A stretch of DNA of 64,000 bases from contig CANLNT010000001.1 of the NCBI GenBank assembly GCA_947492825.1, positions 248,001 through 312,000 on the forward strand, written 5' to 3'. This stretch comes from an uncultured Paracoccaceae bacterium (GTDB lineage: Bacteria > Pseudomonadota > Alphaproteobacteria > Rhodobacterales > Rhodobacteraceae). The notes below the pieces were generated by a model. The model saw nothing but the letters and a program-made list of their open reading frames with translations, did not search any database and was not told the DNA's origin. Below are positions 43,323-48,454 of the stretch, in pieces. The position numbers were made by a program, and so were the translations under genes. The number at the start of each line of letters is the position of its first letter. Within the stretch, counting starts at the first letter, position 1.

Positions 43323-43354
43323 AAAAAAGGGCCGGTCAAAGACCAGCCCTTTTT
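43323..43354. terminator. Bidirectional rho-independent terminator
   Basis: A-rich left arm (43323-43328), stem GGGCCGGTC / GACCAGCCC with one mismatch and AAA loop, then five T residues (43350-43354). The A-run serves as T-run on the other strand. It lies between two convergent genes. Confidence 0.85.
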
Positions 43355-43371: not shown

Positions 43372-45423
43372 TCAGGCCTTGATCAAACCCATCGATTCCA
43401 GCTTCAGGATCACCTGATGCGCGCAGTTGTCCACCTCAACATTTTCGGTATCGAGCGACAGCTCAGGGTTTTCAGGCACGTCATAAGGGTCTGAAATGCC
43501 TGTAAACTCCTTGATCTTGCCTTCGCGCGCCAGCTTATAAAGCCCTTTGCGGTCGCGGCGTTCGCATTCTTCGATCGACGTTGCCACGTGGACTTCGATA
43601 AAGGCACCAAAGGCCTCAATATCCTCGCGCACAGCCCGGCGCGTGGTGGCATAAGGCGCGATGGGTGCGCAAATCGCGATCCCGCCATTCTTGGTAATCT
43701 CAGAGGCGACATAGCCAATCCGGCGGATGTTCAGATCGCGGTGTTCTTTGCTGAACCCAAGCTCGGACGACAGGTTCTTGCGGACAATATCACCATCCAG
43801 CAACGTCACCGGACGGCCACCCATTTCCATCAGCTTGACCATCAGCGCGTTGGCAATGGTGGATTTACCAGAGCCCGAAAAGCCGGTGAAGAACACGGTG
43901 AACCCTTGGCTGGCGCGCGGGGGACGTGTCTTGCGCAGCTCTTCCACCACAGTCGGAAAGCTGAACCACTCGGGAATTTCCAGACCTTCGGCCAGACGGC
44001 GGCGCAATTCGGTGCCGGAAATGTTCAGGATCGTCACGTCATCCTTGTCGGTGATCTCGTCTGCAGGTTCGTACTGGGCGCGGTCTTGCACATAAACCAT
44101 GTGCTTAAAGTCGACCATTTCGATACCCATTTCCTCTTGATGCTCGCGGAACAGGTCCTGCGCATCATAAGGGCCATAAAAATCCTCGCCCTGGCTGTTG
44201 GCGCCGGGGCCAGCGTGGTCGCGGCCCACGATGAAATGGGTGCAGCCGTGGTTCTTGCGGATCAGCCCGTGCCAGACCGCTTCCCGCGGGCCAGCCATGC
44301 GCATGGCAAGGTTCAAAAGGGACATTGTGGTGGTCGAGGCGGGGTATTGATCCAGCACAGCCTCATAGCAGCGCACGCGGGTAAAGTGATCAATGTCGCC
44401 CGGCTTGGTCAGACCGACAACCGGGTGGATCAGCAGGTTGGCCTGCGCTTCCTTGGCGGCGCGGAACGTCAGTTCCTGATGCGCCCGGTGCAGCGGGTTG
44501 CGGGTCTGGAACGCAACCACACGACGCCAACCCAGCTTGCGGAAATAGGCGCGCAATTCGTTCGGCGTGTCGCGACGGGCACGGAAATCATAATGCACAG
44601 GCTGTTGAATGCCGGTCACCGGCCCGCCCAGATAAACCTCTCCGGCGGTGTTGTGCAGATAGTTTACGGCGGGGTGGGCGCTGTCGTCGGCACCAAACAC
44701 CATCTCGGCCTCGCGCGCCTTGTTCGGCACCCACTTGTCGGTCACGGTCATCGTGCCAAGGATCACGCCTTCCTGGTCGCGCAGCGCGATGTCCTGCCCA
44801 ATTTCAATGCTTTCGGCATAGTCCTTGGACACATCCAGCGTGATCGGCATCGGCCACAACTGCCCGTCGGCCAGGCGCATGTTTTCGACAACGCCGTTGT
44901 AGTCGTCTTCGCTCAGGAACCCTTTGAGCGGGTTAAACCCGCCGTTCATCAGAAGTTCCAGATCGCAAATCTGGCGTGGGGTCAGGTCGTGGCTGGTCAG
45001 CTCTGCAGCGTCCATCTTCATCTTTTGGGCGCTGTCAAAACTGACATAAAGCTCTGGAATGGGGGCAAGGTTATTTTGCATCAGTTGGGTCCTTTGGTTA
45101 GTCGGAACATAGCCACTGGCAGAGCCCTTCAGCTCTGCATGTAGGGCGTCGTATTCTTGAAATTTCCGGGCAAGGAAAAGGTCCGTCAGCCGGGCCTTTT
45201 CGGCGGCGCCCTTGGGGGTCAGCCCATATGCCATGCGCTGTCGTTTGTCGGTGCTGTTGCGGTTGCCGATCTTGATATAGCCTGCGGCCACAGCCGCCTT
45301 AAGCTGTGCGTTCAGCCGCCCCAAGGACACGCCGACCGCCTGCGCCGTTTGACGCTGGGCGGCGTCCGGCGCATGATCCAGTTGACGCAACAGGCGAAAC
45401 AACGCCTCTTGTTCATCCGTCAT
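43372..45423 (-). CDS. MarR-type winged helix fused to ATP sulfurylase and APS kinase
   Basis: A 683 aa protein from ATG 45423 (a GTG at 45447 is possible). Numbered from that ATG, residues 1-100 are a winged-helix domain like EPS-associated MarR regulators: AVGVSLGRLNAQLKAAVAAG, then LTPKGAAEKARLTDLFLARK. Residues ~115-500 are sulfate adenylyltransferase (QTRNPLHRAH 306-315, GRDHAGPG) and ~505-683 APS kinase (GFSGSGKST 514-522, LDGDIVRKNLS). It would convert sulfate through APS to PAPS. Close relatives begin at MQNNLAPIPELY, here an internal Met at 45081 with its own ribosome-binding site and no stop codon before it. So either a true fusion or a leaderless nested second start exists. Confidence 0.88.
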   Translation of the reverse strand: MTDEQEALFRLLRQLDHAPDAAQRQTAQAVGVSLGRLNAQLKAAVAAGYIKIGNRNSTDKRQRMAYGLTPKGAAEKARLTDLFLARKFQEYDALHAELKGSASGYVPTNQRTQLMQNNLAPIPELYVSFDSAQKMKMDAAELTSHDLTPRQICDLELLMNGGFNPLKGFLSEDDYNGVVENMRLADGQLWPMPITLDVSKDYAESIEIGQDIALRDQEGVILGTMTVTDKWVPNKAREAEMVFGADDSAHPAVNYLHNTAGEVYLGGPVTGIQQPVHYDFRARRDTPNELRAYFRKLGWRRVVAFQTRNPLHRAHQELTFRAAKEAQANLLIHPVVGLTKPGDIDHFTRVRCYEAVLDQYPASTTTMSLLNLAMRMAGPREAVWHGLIRKNHGCTHFIVGRDHAGPGANSQGEDFYGPYDAQDLFREHQEEMGIEMVDFKHMVYVQDRAQYEPADEITDKDDVTILNISGTELRRRLAEGLEIPEWFSFPTVVEELRKTRPPRASQGFTVFFTGFSGSGKSTIANALMVKLMEMGGRPVTLLDGDIVRKNLSSELGFSKEHRDLNIRRIGYVASEITKNGGIAICAPIAPYATTRRAVREDIEAFGAFIEVHVATSIEECERRDRKGLYKLAREGKIKEFTGISDPYDVPENPELSLDTENVEVDNCAHQVILKLESMGLIKA
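45090..45095 (-). promoter_or_regulatory. Internal ribosome-binding site for unfused Sat-CysC
   Basis: On the coding strand AAAGGA lies eight bases before ATG 45081, the start used by ordinary Sat-CysC proteins (569 aa from here). It would allow the enzyme to be made without the winged helix. Confidence 0.6.
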
Positions 45424-45465
45424 GGGTGTCTGGGGTGTTGGCTGCACAGGCCCGACTCAATCTTT

Positions 45466-45479
45466 GTTCACGCCTGAAC
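45466..45479. promoter_or_regulatory. Dyad operator candidate GTTCA-N4-TGAAC
   Basis: A perfect 5-bp inverted repeat with a CGCC centre, 43 bases upstream of ATG 45423. Its size and symmetry suit a dimeric winged-helix protein such as the domain encoded just downstream. Confidence 0.5.
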
Positions 45480-45497: not shown

Positions 45498-45511
45498 GTT
45501 CACAAAAGAAC
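45498..45511. promoter_or_regulatory. Second dyad GTTC-N6-GAAC
   Basis: A related half-site pair 32 bases from the first, about three helical turns, embedded in TGTGTTCACAAAAGAACAAA. Confidence 0.4.
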
Positions 45512-45706: not shown

Positions 45707-46147
45707 TCAAAATGGAAGTGCCGGCCCAGCCACGCCGACGGCATCGGGATCGCCGGAAAAAACCACAAGATGCGTCAAATCAGGTCGCGAGCGCGAGGAA
45801 TATAGCAGCCCCTGCGCGCCACTCGCCCGCGCAGCATCGGAATAGGCCCAGGTGGGGGCGGGGGCACCAGTTGCGCGGATGTCCTGCCAAACCGTCGACA
45901 GCTCGGCCCGCCCACGCAGGTCAACGACTTTGGTCAGCCGCACGTCAAGCGGCACGATGATCCTCGGTGGCTCGTTGGACCCGACATAGCGCTTGATCGC
46001 CACCCGGCAGCCTTCGGCTGTCAGGGACGTGTAGATCGCCGTCTGCCCATCGTGATGAAATCGACCCTCGGTCGAAGCCACGGGGCGGGTTGCATCATCG
46101 GCCCCGGCAAAAATCGTGCGCCAGACCTGACCCGCAAAGGGGATCAT
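45707..46147 (-). CDS. RES-domain protein, catalytic Glu apparently missing
   Basis: A 146 aa protein resembling RES-type NAD+-degrading toxins: GRFHHDGQTAIYTSLTAEG corresponds to the conserved G-R-W-x-x-x-G-x-x-x-Y-T-S loop, and GLLYSSRSRPDLTHLVVF to the distal Ser strand. Eleven residues after the Tyr, where RES enzymes carry their catalytic Glu, this protein has Ala. No Xre/ParS-type antitoxin is adjacent. Instead it starts in an ATGA overlap with trxB, so it is translated with thioredoxin reductase. Possibly a non-toxic derivative with an NAD(P)-related role. Confidence 0.6.
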   Translation of the reverse strand: MIPFAGQVWRTIFAGADDATRPVASTEGRFHHDGQTAIYTSLTAEGCRVAIKRYVGSNEPPRIIVPLDVRLTKVVDLRGRAELSTVWQDIRATGAPAPTWAYSDAARASGAQGLLYSSRSRPDLTHLVVFSGDPDAVGVAGPALPF

Positions 46148-47677: not shown

Positions 47678-48454
47678 TTACGCCGCTTTCTTACGCCGCT
47701 TCATGACGCCGAATGCTGCCAAACCGGCAATCATCAAAGGCATACCAGCAGGCAGTGGAACCTGCGGGGCAACAGTCCGCTGGATCTTGGTGTTGATCGC
47801 AGGCGAATACTGCGTGTAGTCGGTGACGGTCAGCACAAAGGAGTCCGTCAACGGGTTGGTGATCAAACCCGCATTGGCAATCACCGGCGCGCCGCCGATG
47901 CCATTTGTGTCAAACGCAAGTGCGCTCAGCGGTCCAGTGCTGACGCCCGGGCCGACGGCCTCAAAGCTCAGCGAGTCCCAGCCATTTGCACGCAAACCGG
48001 CTGTGCTTGGTGTGCCGGAGTTGTTGTTGCCATCCGTGGTCATGTTGATCAGGCTGGCCTGCGATCCGCTCACATCGCCAAACATTGCATTCAGTGCGTT
48101 GAAGGCTGAGTTGTAGTTGGTGCTGCCGGCGTTGGCAAAGTCGCTTGCCTCAGCACGCACCGCAGACACCAGCCCGTCAAGGTCGGCTTGACTGTTGATT
48201 GTGGTCAGCGGGATCGACGTATCCGCGGACGAACCAAAAGAGATCACGCCAATGCGATATGTCAGCGTTGGATCATTGACCGGGATATTTGCGTCCAGGG
48301 CGTCTGCCAGCGCATTCATCGCCGAGGCATAATTCGCTGAACGAACACTGCCTGATTCATCCATCAGGAACCCGAGGTCGATCACGGCAGCCATCGACGC
48401 AGTTGCGGACATAACCGCGATACTCGTCGCGGCCAAAAGATTCTTTATCTTCAT
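47678..48454 (-). CDS. VWA-domain protein with VPLPA-CTERM sorting signal
   Basis: A 258 aa exported protein: a signal peptide (ending SMAA), a von Willebrand A domain with metal-ion site D32-E-S-G-S36 and INMTTDGNNN, and a C-terminus (231-258) VPLPAGMPLMIAGLAAFGVM-KRRKKAA. That end is a VPLPA-CTERM signal (motif, hydrophobic helix, basic tail), recognised by exosortase-type enzymes of the PEP-CTERM system. The gene therefore predicts an exosortase elsewhere in the genome. The mature protein is Asn/Ser/Thr rich and probably a surface adhesin or matrix protein. Upstream is a perfect CtrA site. Confidence 0.85.
   Translation of the reverse strand: MKIKNLLAATSIAVMSATASMAAVIDLGFLMDESGSVRSANYASAMNALADALDANIPVNDPTLTYRIGVISFGSSADTSIPLTTINSQADLDGLVSAVRAEASDFANAGSTNYNSAFNALNAMFGDVSGSQASLINMTTDGNNNSGTPSTAGLRANGWDSLSFEAVGPGVSTGPLSALAFDTNGIGGAPVIANAGLITNPLTDSFVLTVTDYTQYSPAINTKIQRTVAPQVPLPAGMPLMIAGLAAFGVMKRRKKAA

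Follow-up and report, generated by a model that had tools for sequence, protein, structure and literature searches.

Why does an enzyme of sulfate activation carry a DNA-binding domain, and which DNA would that domain bind? The question is raised by a gene in a stretch of 64,000 nucleotides (nt) from an uncultured Paracoccaceae bacterium (assembly GCA_947492825.1, contig CANLNT010000001.1, positions 248,001 to 312,000), hereafter the window. On its reverse strand, one open frame (43372..45447) joins a winged helix of the MarR type to a bifunctional ATP sulfurylase/adenosine 5'-phosphosulfate (APS) kinase, Sat-CysC. Judging from sequence comparisons and predicted structures, we think it likely that the gene encodes an autogenous trigger enzyme: the fusion would repress its own promoter, and the same gene would also yield free Sat-CysC.

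A winged helix fused to a complete Sat-CysC

Counted from its GTG, the frame is 691 aa long and shows zero stops over the junction, both as an open reading frame (ORF) and when the sequence is read directly. Residues are numbered over the whole protein from the ATG at 45423 (the 683-aa version). The coding features are:

45445..45447, reverse strand: probable GTG start of the full-length protein of 691 aa, placed by the usual family start position relative to the operator
45423-45421, reverse strand: alternative ATG start (683 aa)
45127..45423, reverse strand: winged-helix domain, residues 1-99 (TIGR04176; AlphaFold2; Foldseek)
45286-45324, reverse strand: recognition helix, residues 34-46, motif SLGRLN
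43930..45081, reverse strand: ATP sulfurylase part, PUA_2 plus ATP-sulfurylase (PF14306, PF01747, NF004040)
43375..43917, reverse strand: APS kinase part, CysC (PF01583), with the motif GFSGSGKST, read in the sequence, which we take to be the P-loop

The TIGR04176 (MarR_EPS) profile matches residues 4-99 with 94.6 bits in the whole protein, and with 99.5 bits when the 114-residue N-terminal piece is searched alone (curated cut-off 88). NF004040, the bifunctional Sat/CysC, matches residues 112-682 with 1045.6 bits (cut-off 669) over profile positions 3-571 of 572. An earlier note on this DNA had described a frame open from a MarR-type winged helix into a full Sat-CysC and had named TIGR04176 as the profile to compare; these scores bear it out. 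The AlphaFold2 model of the winged-helix domain (mean predicted local distance difference test, pLDDT, 92.5) has helices at 3-17, 23-30 and 34-46, wing strands at 50-54 and 64-68 and a long last helix at 70-99. A Foldseek search with this model gave 57 PDB matches at E<=0.001, MarR-family proteins among them (best 3k0l, E 1.8e-5). By its full-length score on NF004040, its score on TIGR04176 and its MarR-type fold, the protein belongs to both families, and it has the feature that marks a trigger enzyme, an enzyme fused to a DNA-binding domain. The columns of the enzyme part are mostly invariant or nearly so in 50 aligned fusions, and catalysis is predicted.

The fusion recurs and its winged helix is conserved

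In a search of 61 genomes, the fusion was found in open frames in the window genome and in 4/4 other genomes of the same genus. With the winged helix as query, 150 of 395 sampled genomes of the family were matched, and 95 of the 395 carry the fusion (E<=3.2e-30), 93 of them in frames of at least 690 aa and two in shorter frames (267 aa in G036, 601 aa in G369). Below the score gap after these best 95, the matches listed are genes of stand-alone winged helices, most of them with frames of about 110-225 aa; a weaker fused case, in genome G295, lies outside the matches listed. In a class-wide sample of 241 genomes, zero winged-helix matches lay in frames of at least 500 aa apart from the window genome and G218, whose fused copy falls under the TIGR04176 cut-off (83.7 vs 88 bits). 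The fusion is present in many Roseobacter-type bacteria of the sea; named carriers among the best 80 of 581 relatives include Phaeobacter, Leisingera, Shimia, Roseovarius, Sulfitobacter, Octadecabacter, Loktanella, Tateyamaria, Salipiger and Maritimibacter. One carrier record titled Nocardioides marinus (L123, JAHVJD010000004.1) has a fusion gene that clusters with Leisingera; this assembly is probably mislabelled or contaminated.

In six comparisons within the genus, the ratio of nonsynonymous to synonymous substitution rates (dN/dS) of the winged helix is 0.06-0.10 at synonymous distances of 0.7-1.8, and by this measure the domain is under purifying selection. The recognition helix reads SLGxxN in 129 of 131 fusions (one other has SVGKLN, one is poorly parsed), and S33, L34, G35, N38, Y66 and the wing residues R61 and R63 are invariant in the 50 aligned fusions. 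An accidental read-through frame, created by annotation or assembly, is effectively refuted by the recurrence in 95/395 family genomes and by the low dN/dS, and nothing was found in its favour. The earlier note had raised the possibility of a missed stop or indel at the junction and had pointed to related genomes; because the fusion recurs in the genus and in the family, such an error is ruled out. Neither a junction stop nor a set of homologues in which the two parts are always separate, both of which that note would have taken as refutation, was encountered.

The history of the fusion was read from a tree of the enzyme part with 189 sequences (131 fusions, 57 unfused and 1 split), supported by the Shimodaira-Hasegawa-like approximate likelihood-ratio test (SH-aLRT) only. 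The best tree requires 37 gains or losses of the fusion, of which at least 13 fall on well-supported branches. In a comparison with 50 stand-alone winged helices, the fused ones (63 of the 131) cluster together, with a support of 91/84 that is not decisive. Given this clustering, the simplest history would be a single fusion whose 5' end was then lost or replaced repeatedly. The fusion of G295 (L210) is divergent, with a different linker, a long-branch winged helix, two palindromes of the type described below and its own AGGA and ATG; it is perhaps an independent second fusion. Partial tblastn extensions had suggested decayed winged helices in the unfused genes L167, L193, L204 and L205; on translation these proved to be unrelated sequence.

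A palindrome at the promoter accompanies the fusion

Upstream of the window gene, a motif search and a promoter alignment identified the following elements:

45466..45479, reverse strand: proximal operator GTTCAGGCGTGAAC, a GTTCA-N4-TGAAC palindrome (upstream-motif search, promoter alignment)
45498..45511, reverse strand: distal palindrome GTTCTTTTGTGAAC, a second operator, lying 32 nt further upstream than the proximal one
45508-45503, reverse strand: promoter-like CTTTTG (family consensus CTTTG; conserved alignment columns, putative function)
45489-45482, reverse strand: promoter-like CATGCAAT (family consensus taTGcNAT; conserved alignment columns, putative function)

A first survey found GTTC-N6-GAAC within 250 nt upstream at 118 of 120 fusion loci (duplicates counted) and at none of 20 unfused genes; at L048 and L082, the two fusion loci without it, the stretch ends just 58 nt upstream. 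A further 60 loci were then included: 40 that ranked among the best-scoring places of the unfused or odd kind, and 20 fusions of greater divergence. The operator count leaves out identical enzymes, L001, which duplicates the window gene, and L030, a short unfused gene that lacks the site. The motif, mostly as GTTCA-N4-TGAAC, stands upstream of all 130 fusions with at least 75 nt of upstream sequence and within 400 nt of 0/58 non-fusions. Operator and fusion are thus linked, the one tracking the other in 13/13 independent pairs (sign test p=0.00024). The earlier note does not mention an operator; lying at the gene's own promoter, it would give the DNA-binding domain its target.

In 109 fusion promoters aligned on the palindrome, its flanks are symmetric as well (TGYGTTCA-N4-TGAACRCA); a TATGCNAT-like element stands immediately upstream of it, and CTTTG about 29 nt upstream. 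More than one palindrome occurs within 250 nt in 34/130 fusions, and 19 extra sites lie exactly 32 nt upstream, the commonest spacing. Of the two palindromes, the distal overlaps the -35-like element, and the proximal comes immediately after the -10-like one; from this position we infer that the fusion represses its promoter. That it would instead activate its own gene is unlikely in our view: the promoter is itself predicted from conservation, which leaves activation some room, whereas the placement of both palindromes is a repressor layout, and MarR-type proteins are mostly repressors.

The operator also bears on where translation begins. In-frame ATG, GTG or TTG codons lie at +28 to +34 from the operator in 103/130 fusions and none lies at +28 to +39 in 12, counts that come without a chance baseline; the first ATG or other start falls 30-34 nt after the operator start in 85/130. 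For the full-length protein, a true start at the GTG of 45447 is plausible: its distance from the beginning of the proximal operator is 32 nt, and other fusions start at this place too.

Recognition helix and operator vary together in stand-alone relatives

Does the fused winged helix itself read the palindrome? We compared 50 stand-alone relatives (within L256-L306), 45 from the same family, best-scoring among the matches listed, and 5 from other families. An exact GTTCA-N4-TGAAC lies within 350 nt upstream of 16/50 of these genes, and one with at most one mismatch in 28/50; seven control patterns at the same 50 genes gave 0 exact sites and 0-2/50 at one mismatch, and unfused Sat-CysC genes gave 0/57. 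The exact site accompanies 12/14 SLGxxN helices vs 4/36 other helices (Fisher p=1.1e-6, an indicative value since the rows are related), with one unparsed helix tallied under the others; the two SLGxxN genes that lack it, L264 and L266, are both from other families. Conversely, GCTCA-N4-TGAGC (at most one mismatch, within 400 nt) was found with 0/14 SLGxxN helices, 25/36 other helices and 0/58 non-fused enzyme genes, against 0-1/14, 0-4/36 and 0-4/58 for six control patterns. The four SFG- or SIG-type helices among the 50 have neither site.

Because the type of site matches the recognition helix, this covariation points to direct binding of the palindrome by the winged helix. A code for the family may be suggested, in which SLGxxN reads GTTCA and S[VTN]Gxx[HY] reads GCTCA; we put it forward tentatively, jointly with the sensor function discussed below.

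The palindrome might instead belong to another factor, such as a general sulfur or exopolysaccharide (EPS) regulator, the fused winged helix being an interaction or oligomerisation module that does not bind DNA. A candidate of this kind exists in genome G224, where a stand-alone MarR_EPS gene near ABC-export genes has the same exact site and could in principle use the palindrome. We consider this explanation quite unlikely. The site is missing from all 58 non-fused genes, even though 30 of 57 unfused genes share the upstream neighbour of most fusions, a TrxB-like gene (96/117 fusions; loci with at least 900 nt upstream). Base 2 of the operator covaries with the recognition helix of stand-alone relatives, the fusions retain the invariant S33, L34, G35 and N38 and the wing arginines R61 and R63, and the single TIGR04176 match of the window genome at E<=0.001 is the fusion itself.

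An internal start is conserved in the fusions

The linker of the window gene contains a second possible start of translation:

45090..45093, reverse strand: internal Shine-Dalgarno sequence AGGA in the linker (AAAGGA at 45095-45090)
45079..45081, reverse strand: internal ATG start codon, residue 115, for free Sat-CysC

Both stand where the earlier note had placed them, and ordinary unfused relatives begin, as it said, near this Met. The internal start was compared in 129 fusions, that is 131 minus L212 and L222, whose anchor motif differs. The residue-115 codon is ATG in 121/129 and GTG in 7/129, while L214 has an ATG one codon earlier; where the Met is replaced, it is thus mostly by a Val encoded by GTG, itself a start codon. 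The Arg codon four codons before the start is AGG in 127/129 fusions, and in 129/131 if L212 and L222 are included, in which AGG and ATG are both present by eye. In the same genes AGG makes up 10/5162 Arg codons of the enzyme parts and 34/1491 of the winged-helix parts. One of AGGA, GGAG or GAGG lies within 20 nt of the start in 128/129, L215 having only AAGG.

Because AGG is so frequent here and so rare elsewhere, the conservation of AGGA and start is hard to explain otherwise than by selection for internal translation initiation. The contrary case, that the full-length protein is the only product, with the internal AGGA/ATG left over as a relic or kept for the sake of the linker peptide, draws on the fairly conserved surrounding peptide (HRT..M) and on AGG being somewhat commoner in the winged-helix part. 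It seems improbable to us given the contrast with the enzyme part and the replacement of Met by Val as a GTG start codon. The gene has a conserved in-frame internal start for its C-terminal part, as is typical of TipA-like genes, and the best reading is that it gives two products, the fusion and the free enzyme, which would be present together. Where the earlier note had left the choice between a fusion, a separate enzyme or both, the strongly selected start and its AGGA favour both.

Other possible targets

Among 30 fusion genomes, 15 have a strict 20-bp form of the operator, each a single time, and the reversed control was found 0 times. By coordinates, 13 of the 15 sites lie at the sat promoter; that of G201 stands at a contig end which is itself probably a part of the sat promoter, and that of G358 lies elsewhere. 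Five genomes of the genus together contain 28 copies of the plain 14-bp palindrome, vs 9 of the reversed control (window genome, 8 vs 2; its four relatives, 5 vs 0, 4 vs 2, 7 vs 3 and 4 vs 2). We compared 24 site loci, the 8 of the window genome and 16 of the 20 in the four relatives: the sat site alone is common to all five genomes, and one further pair (L145/L317) is common to two, the L145 site lying within an NrdR-like coding frame. On this comparison sat is the one conserved target, and it may be the sole one.

Two leads to a wider regulon were not retained. One site (L143) lies about 390 nt upstream of a Cys_Met_Meta_PP gene of sulfur metabolism and has no homologue among the compared loci, and a search with longer flanks and one mismatch gave 11-16 sites per genome vs 1-8 for the reversed control, from which, among the matches listed, no regulon was drawn. 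The window genome's single PAPS_reduct match (PF01507) is not near any of its eight 14-bp palindromes.

A predicted autogenous loop

The mechanism that we propose is as follows. One gene would give a full-length winged helix-Sat-CysC and, by initiation at the conserved internal start, the enzyme without its winged helix. As a dimer, the winged helix of the full-length product would bind GTTCA-N4-TGAAC right after the predicted -10 element of its own promoter; in some species, the window species included, a second copy of the palindrome overlaps the -35-like element. So bound, the long form would most likely repress the sat promoter. Since enzyme and DNA-binding domain are one molecule, the oligomeric or ligand state of the enzyme (sulfate/ATP, APS or 3'-phosphoadenosine 5'-phosphosulfate, PAPS) would probably set the affinity for DNA, and sulfate-activation capacity would thereby be adjusted to the enzyme's own occupancy. 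The free short form would carry out most of the catalysis and dilute the long form in mixed oligomers. More tentatively, Sat-CysC, the entry enzyme of sulfate assimilation, may both sense its metabolites and repress its own gene: occupancy by APS/PAPS or substrate would alter how the fused winged helix binds the operator, with the ratio of long to short form, fixed by the two starts, tuning the feedback.

Several observations weigh against this picture and temper it. The fusion is absent from 300/395 sampled family genomes and is therefore dispensable. Half of the fusion genomes searched (15/30) lack the strict 20-bp form, and 22/50 stand-alone genes lack a site within one mismatch of GTTCA-N4-TGAAC. 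Further, species-specific targets may exist, since in the genus the 14-bp palindrome outnumbers its reversed control. The promoter elements are a guess from conservation, AGG is less rare in the winged-helix parts than in the enzyme parts, and the pair and Fisher counts are drawn from related sequences. The enzyme tree, a quick search, has 76/186 inner branches unresolved. Finally, the full-length AlphaFold model is poor across the enzyme (mean pLDDT 66.8) and is no guide to domain packing.

Genomic neighbourhood and polysaccharide loci

Upstream of the window fusion lie a RES-domain ORF and then a pyridine-nucleotide oxidoreductase gene (PF07992, Pyr_redox_2), presumably TrxB. Other features near the gene are:

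45707-46147, reverse strand: RES-domain ORF (PF08808) between the TrxB-like and fusion genes, present at 11/117 fusion loci
47678-48454, reverse strand: VWA-domain protein (PF00092) with a weak C-terminal PEP-CTERM match below cut-off
43323..43349, reverse strand: terminator-like hairpin GGGCTGGTC-tttGACCGGCCC followed by T6, a by-eye reading of the sequence only

Five nearby genes were scanned (Clp ATPase, HAGH_C hydrolase, Pyr_redox_2, Lrp/AsnC and one without match), and no recognised polysaccharide gene was found among these five and the RES and VWA genes. We therefore do not call the fusion an EPS regulator, and speak only of the same DNA-binding domain. The earlier note had linked the fusion to PAPS synthesis for sulfated polysaccharide or cysteine supply; a direct tie to sulfated polysaccharide at this locus finds no support in these neighbours. 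Overall, the observation of that note is confirmed and its interpretation partly supported.

Polysaccharide loci elsewhere hold instead the stand-alone relatives and extra sat-cysC copies. Neighbours were scanned at eight stand-alone loci: seven are polysaccharide loci, with genes for Wzt/ABC export, UDP-sugar dehydrogenases, epimerases, glycosyltransferases, YjbH, YjbF and Poly_export, and the one protein scanned at the eighth (L306) was unmatched. In G409, a winged-helix gene with an exact operator upstream adjoins a second sat-cysC copy in a polysaccharide locus. Such an arrangement is not the rule, and the idea that stand-alone MarR_EPS genes usually lie beside sat-cysC was dropped, since only 2/50 loci (L260, L299) have a Sat-CysC in the fetched stretch.

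Four unfused sat-cysC copies (L260, L299, L324, L325) lie near polysaccharide or stand-alone MarR_EPS genes. Two of the four are plasmid-borne, in Roseobacter denitrificans (pTB2) and Sulfitobacter pontiacus, and are annotated simply as bifunctional enzyme. Their position suggests that these extra copies may supply PAPS for sulfated polysaccharide. G224 holds both a fusion (L044) and a stand-alone gene (L304) of the same helix class, the latter with an exact palindrome and beside Wzt-type and ABC2_membrane export genes, and cross-talk between sulfate activation and polysaccharide export is possible there.

Comparison with known systems

A literature search, whose coverage left out most subscription papers, found no description of a winged helix-Sat-CysC fusion and no account of how sulfate-activation genes are controlled in Roseobacter-type bacteria; in the Ruegeria pomeroyi proteogenomics paper (PMC3305630), a term search limited to the main text did not find the enzyme. 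These bacteria are abundant in the sea. An enzyme-borne regulator whose operator and second start can be read in the sequence would be a compact and directly testable homeostat, and from its stand-alone relatives an operator and a code linking helix to base can be predicted for MarR_EPS (TIGR04176), a family that the literature search found named in a single paper.

Residues 112-682 make the window protein a full member of the bifunctional Sat/CysC enzymes (NF004040; solved relatives 2gks and 3cr8). Unlike the solved Sat-CysC and ATP sulfurylase chains, whose matches start at profile position 119 or later, it has an extra N-terminal winged helix. This helix shares domain, fold and operator class with stand-alone TIGR04176 members that have the SLGxxN helix, but unlike them it is fused to an enzyme and lies outside a polysaccharide locus.

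BirA and PutA are metabolic enzymes with a DNA-binding domain that acts on transcription, PutA on a single target (PMC8249747). Here, the enzyme is one of sulfate activation and the winged helix is of another family; the conserved second start for the free enzyme may be a further difference. The MerR-family pair TipAL/TipAS comes from a single autoregulated gene whose two start codons give a full-length regulator and the C-terminal domain alone (PMC7762955); that domain binds drugs, whereas the C-terminal part here is a metabolic enzyme. In Cryptococcus, ATP sulfurylase is linked to the transcriptional control of sulfur assimilation by contact with Cys3, a separate bZIP factor (PMC10359356). 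In the bacteria considered here, by comparison, the DNA-binding domain is fused to the enzyme.

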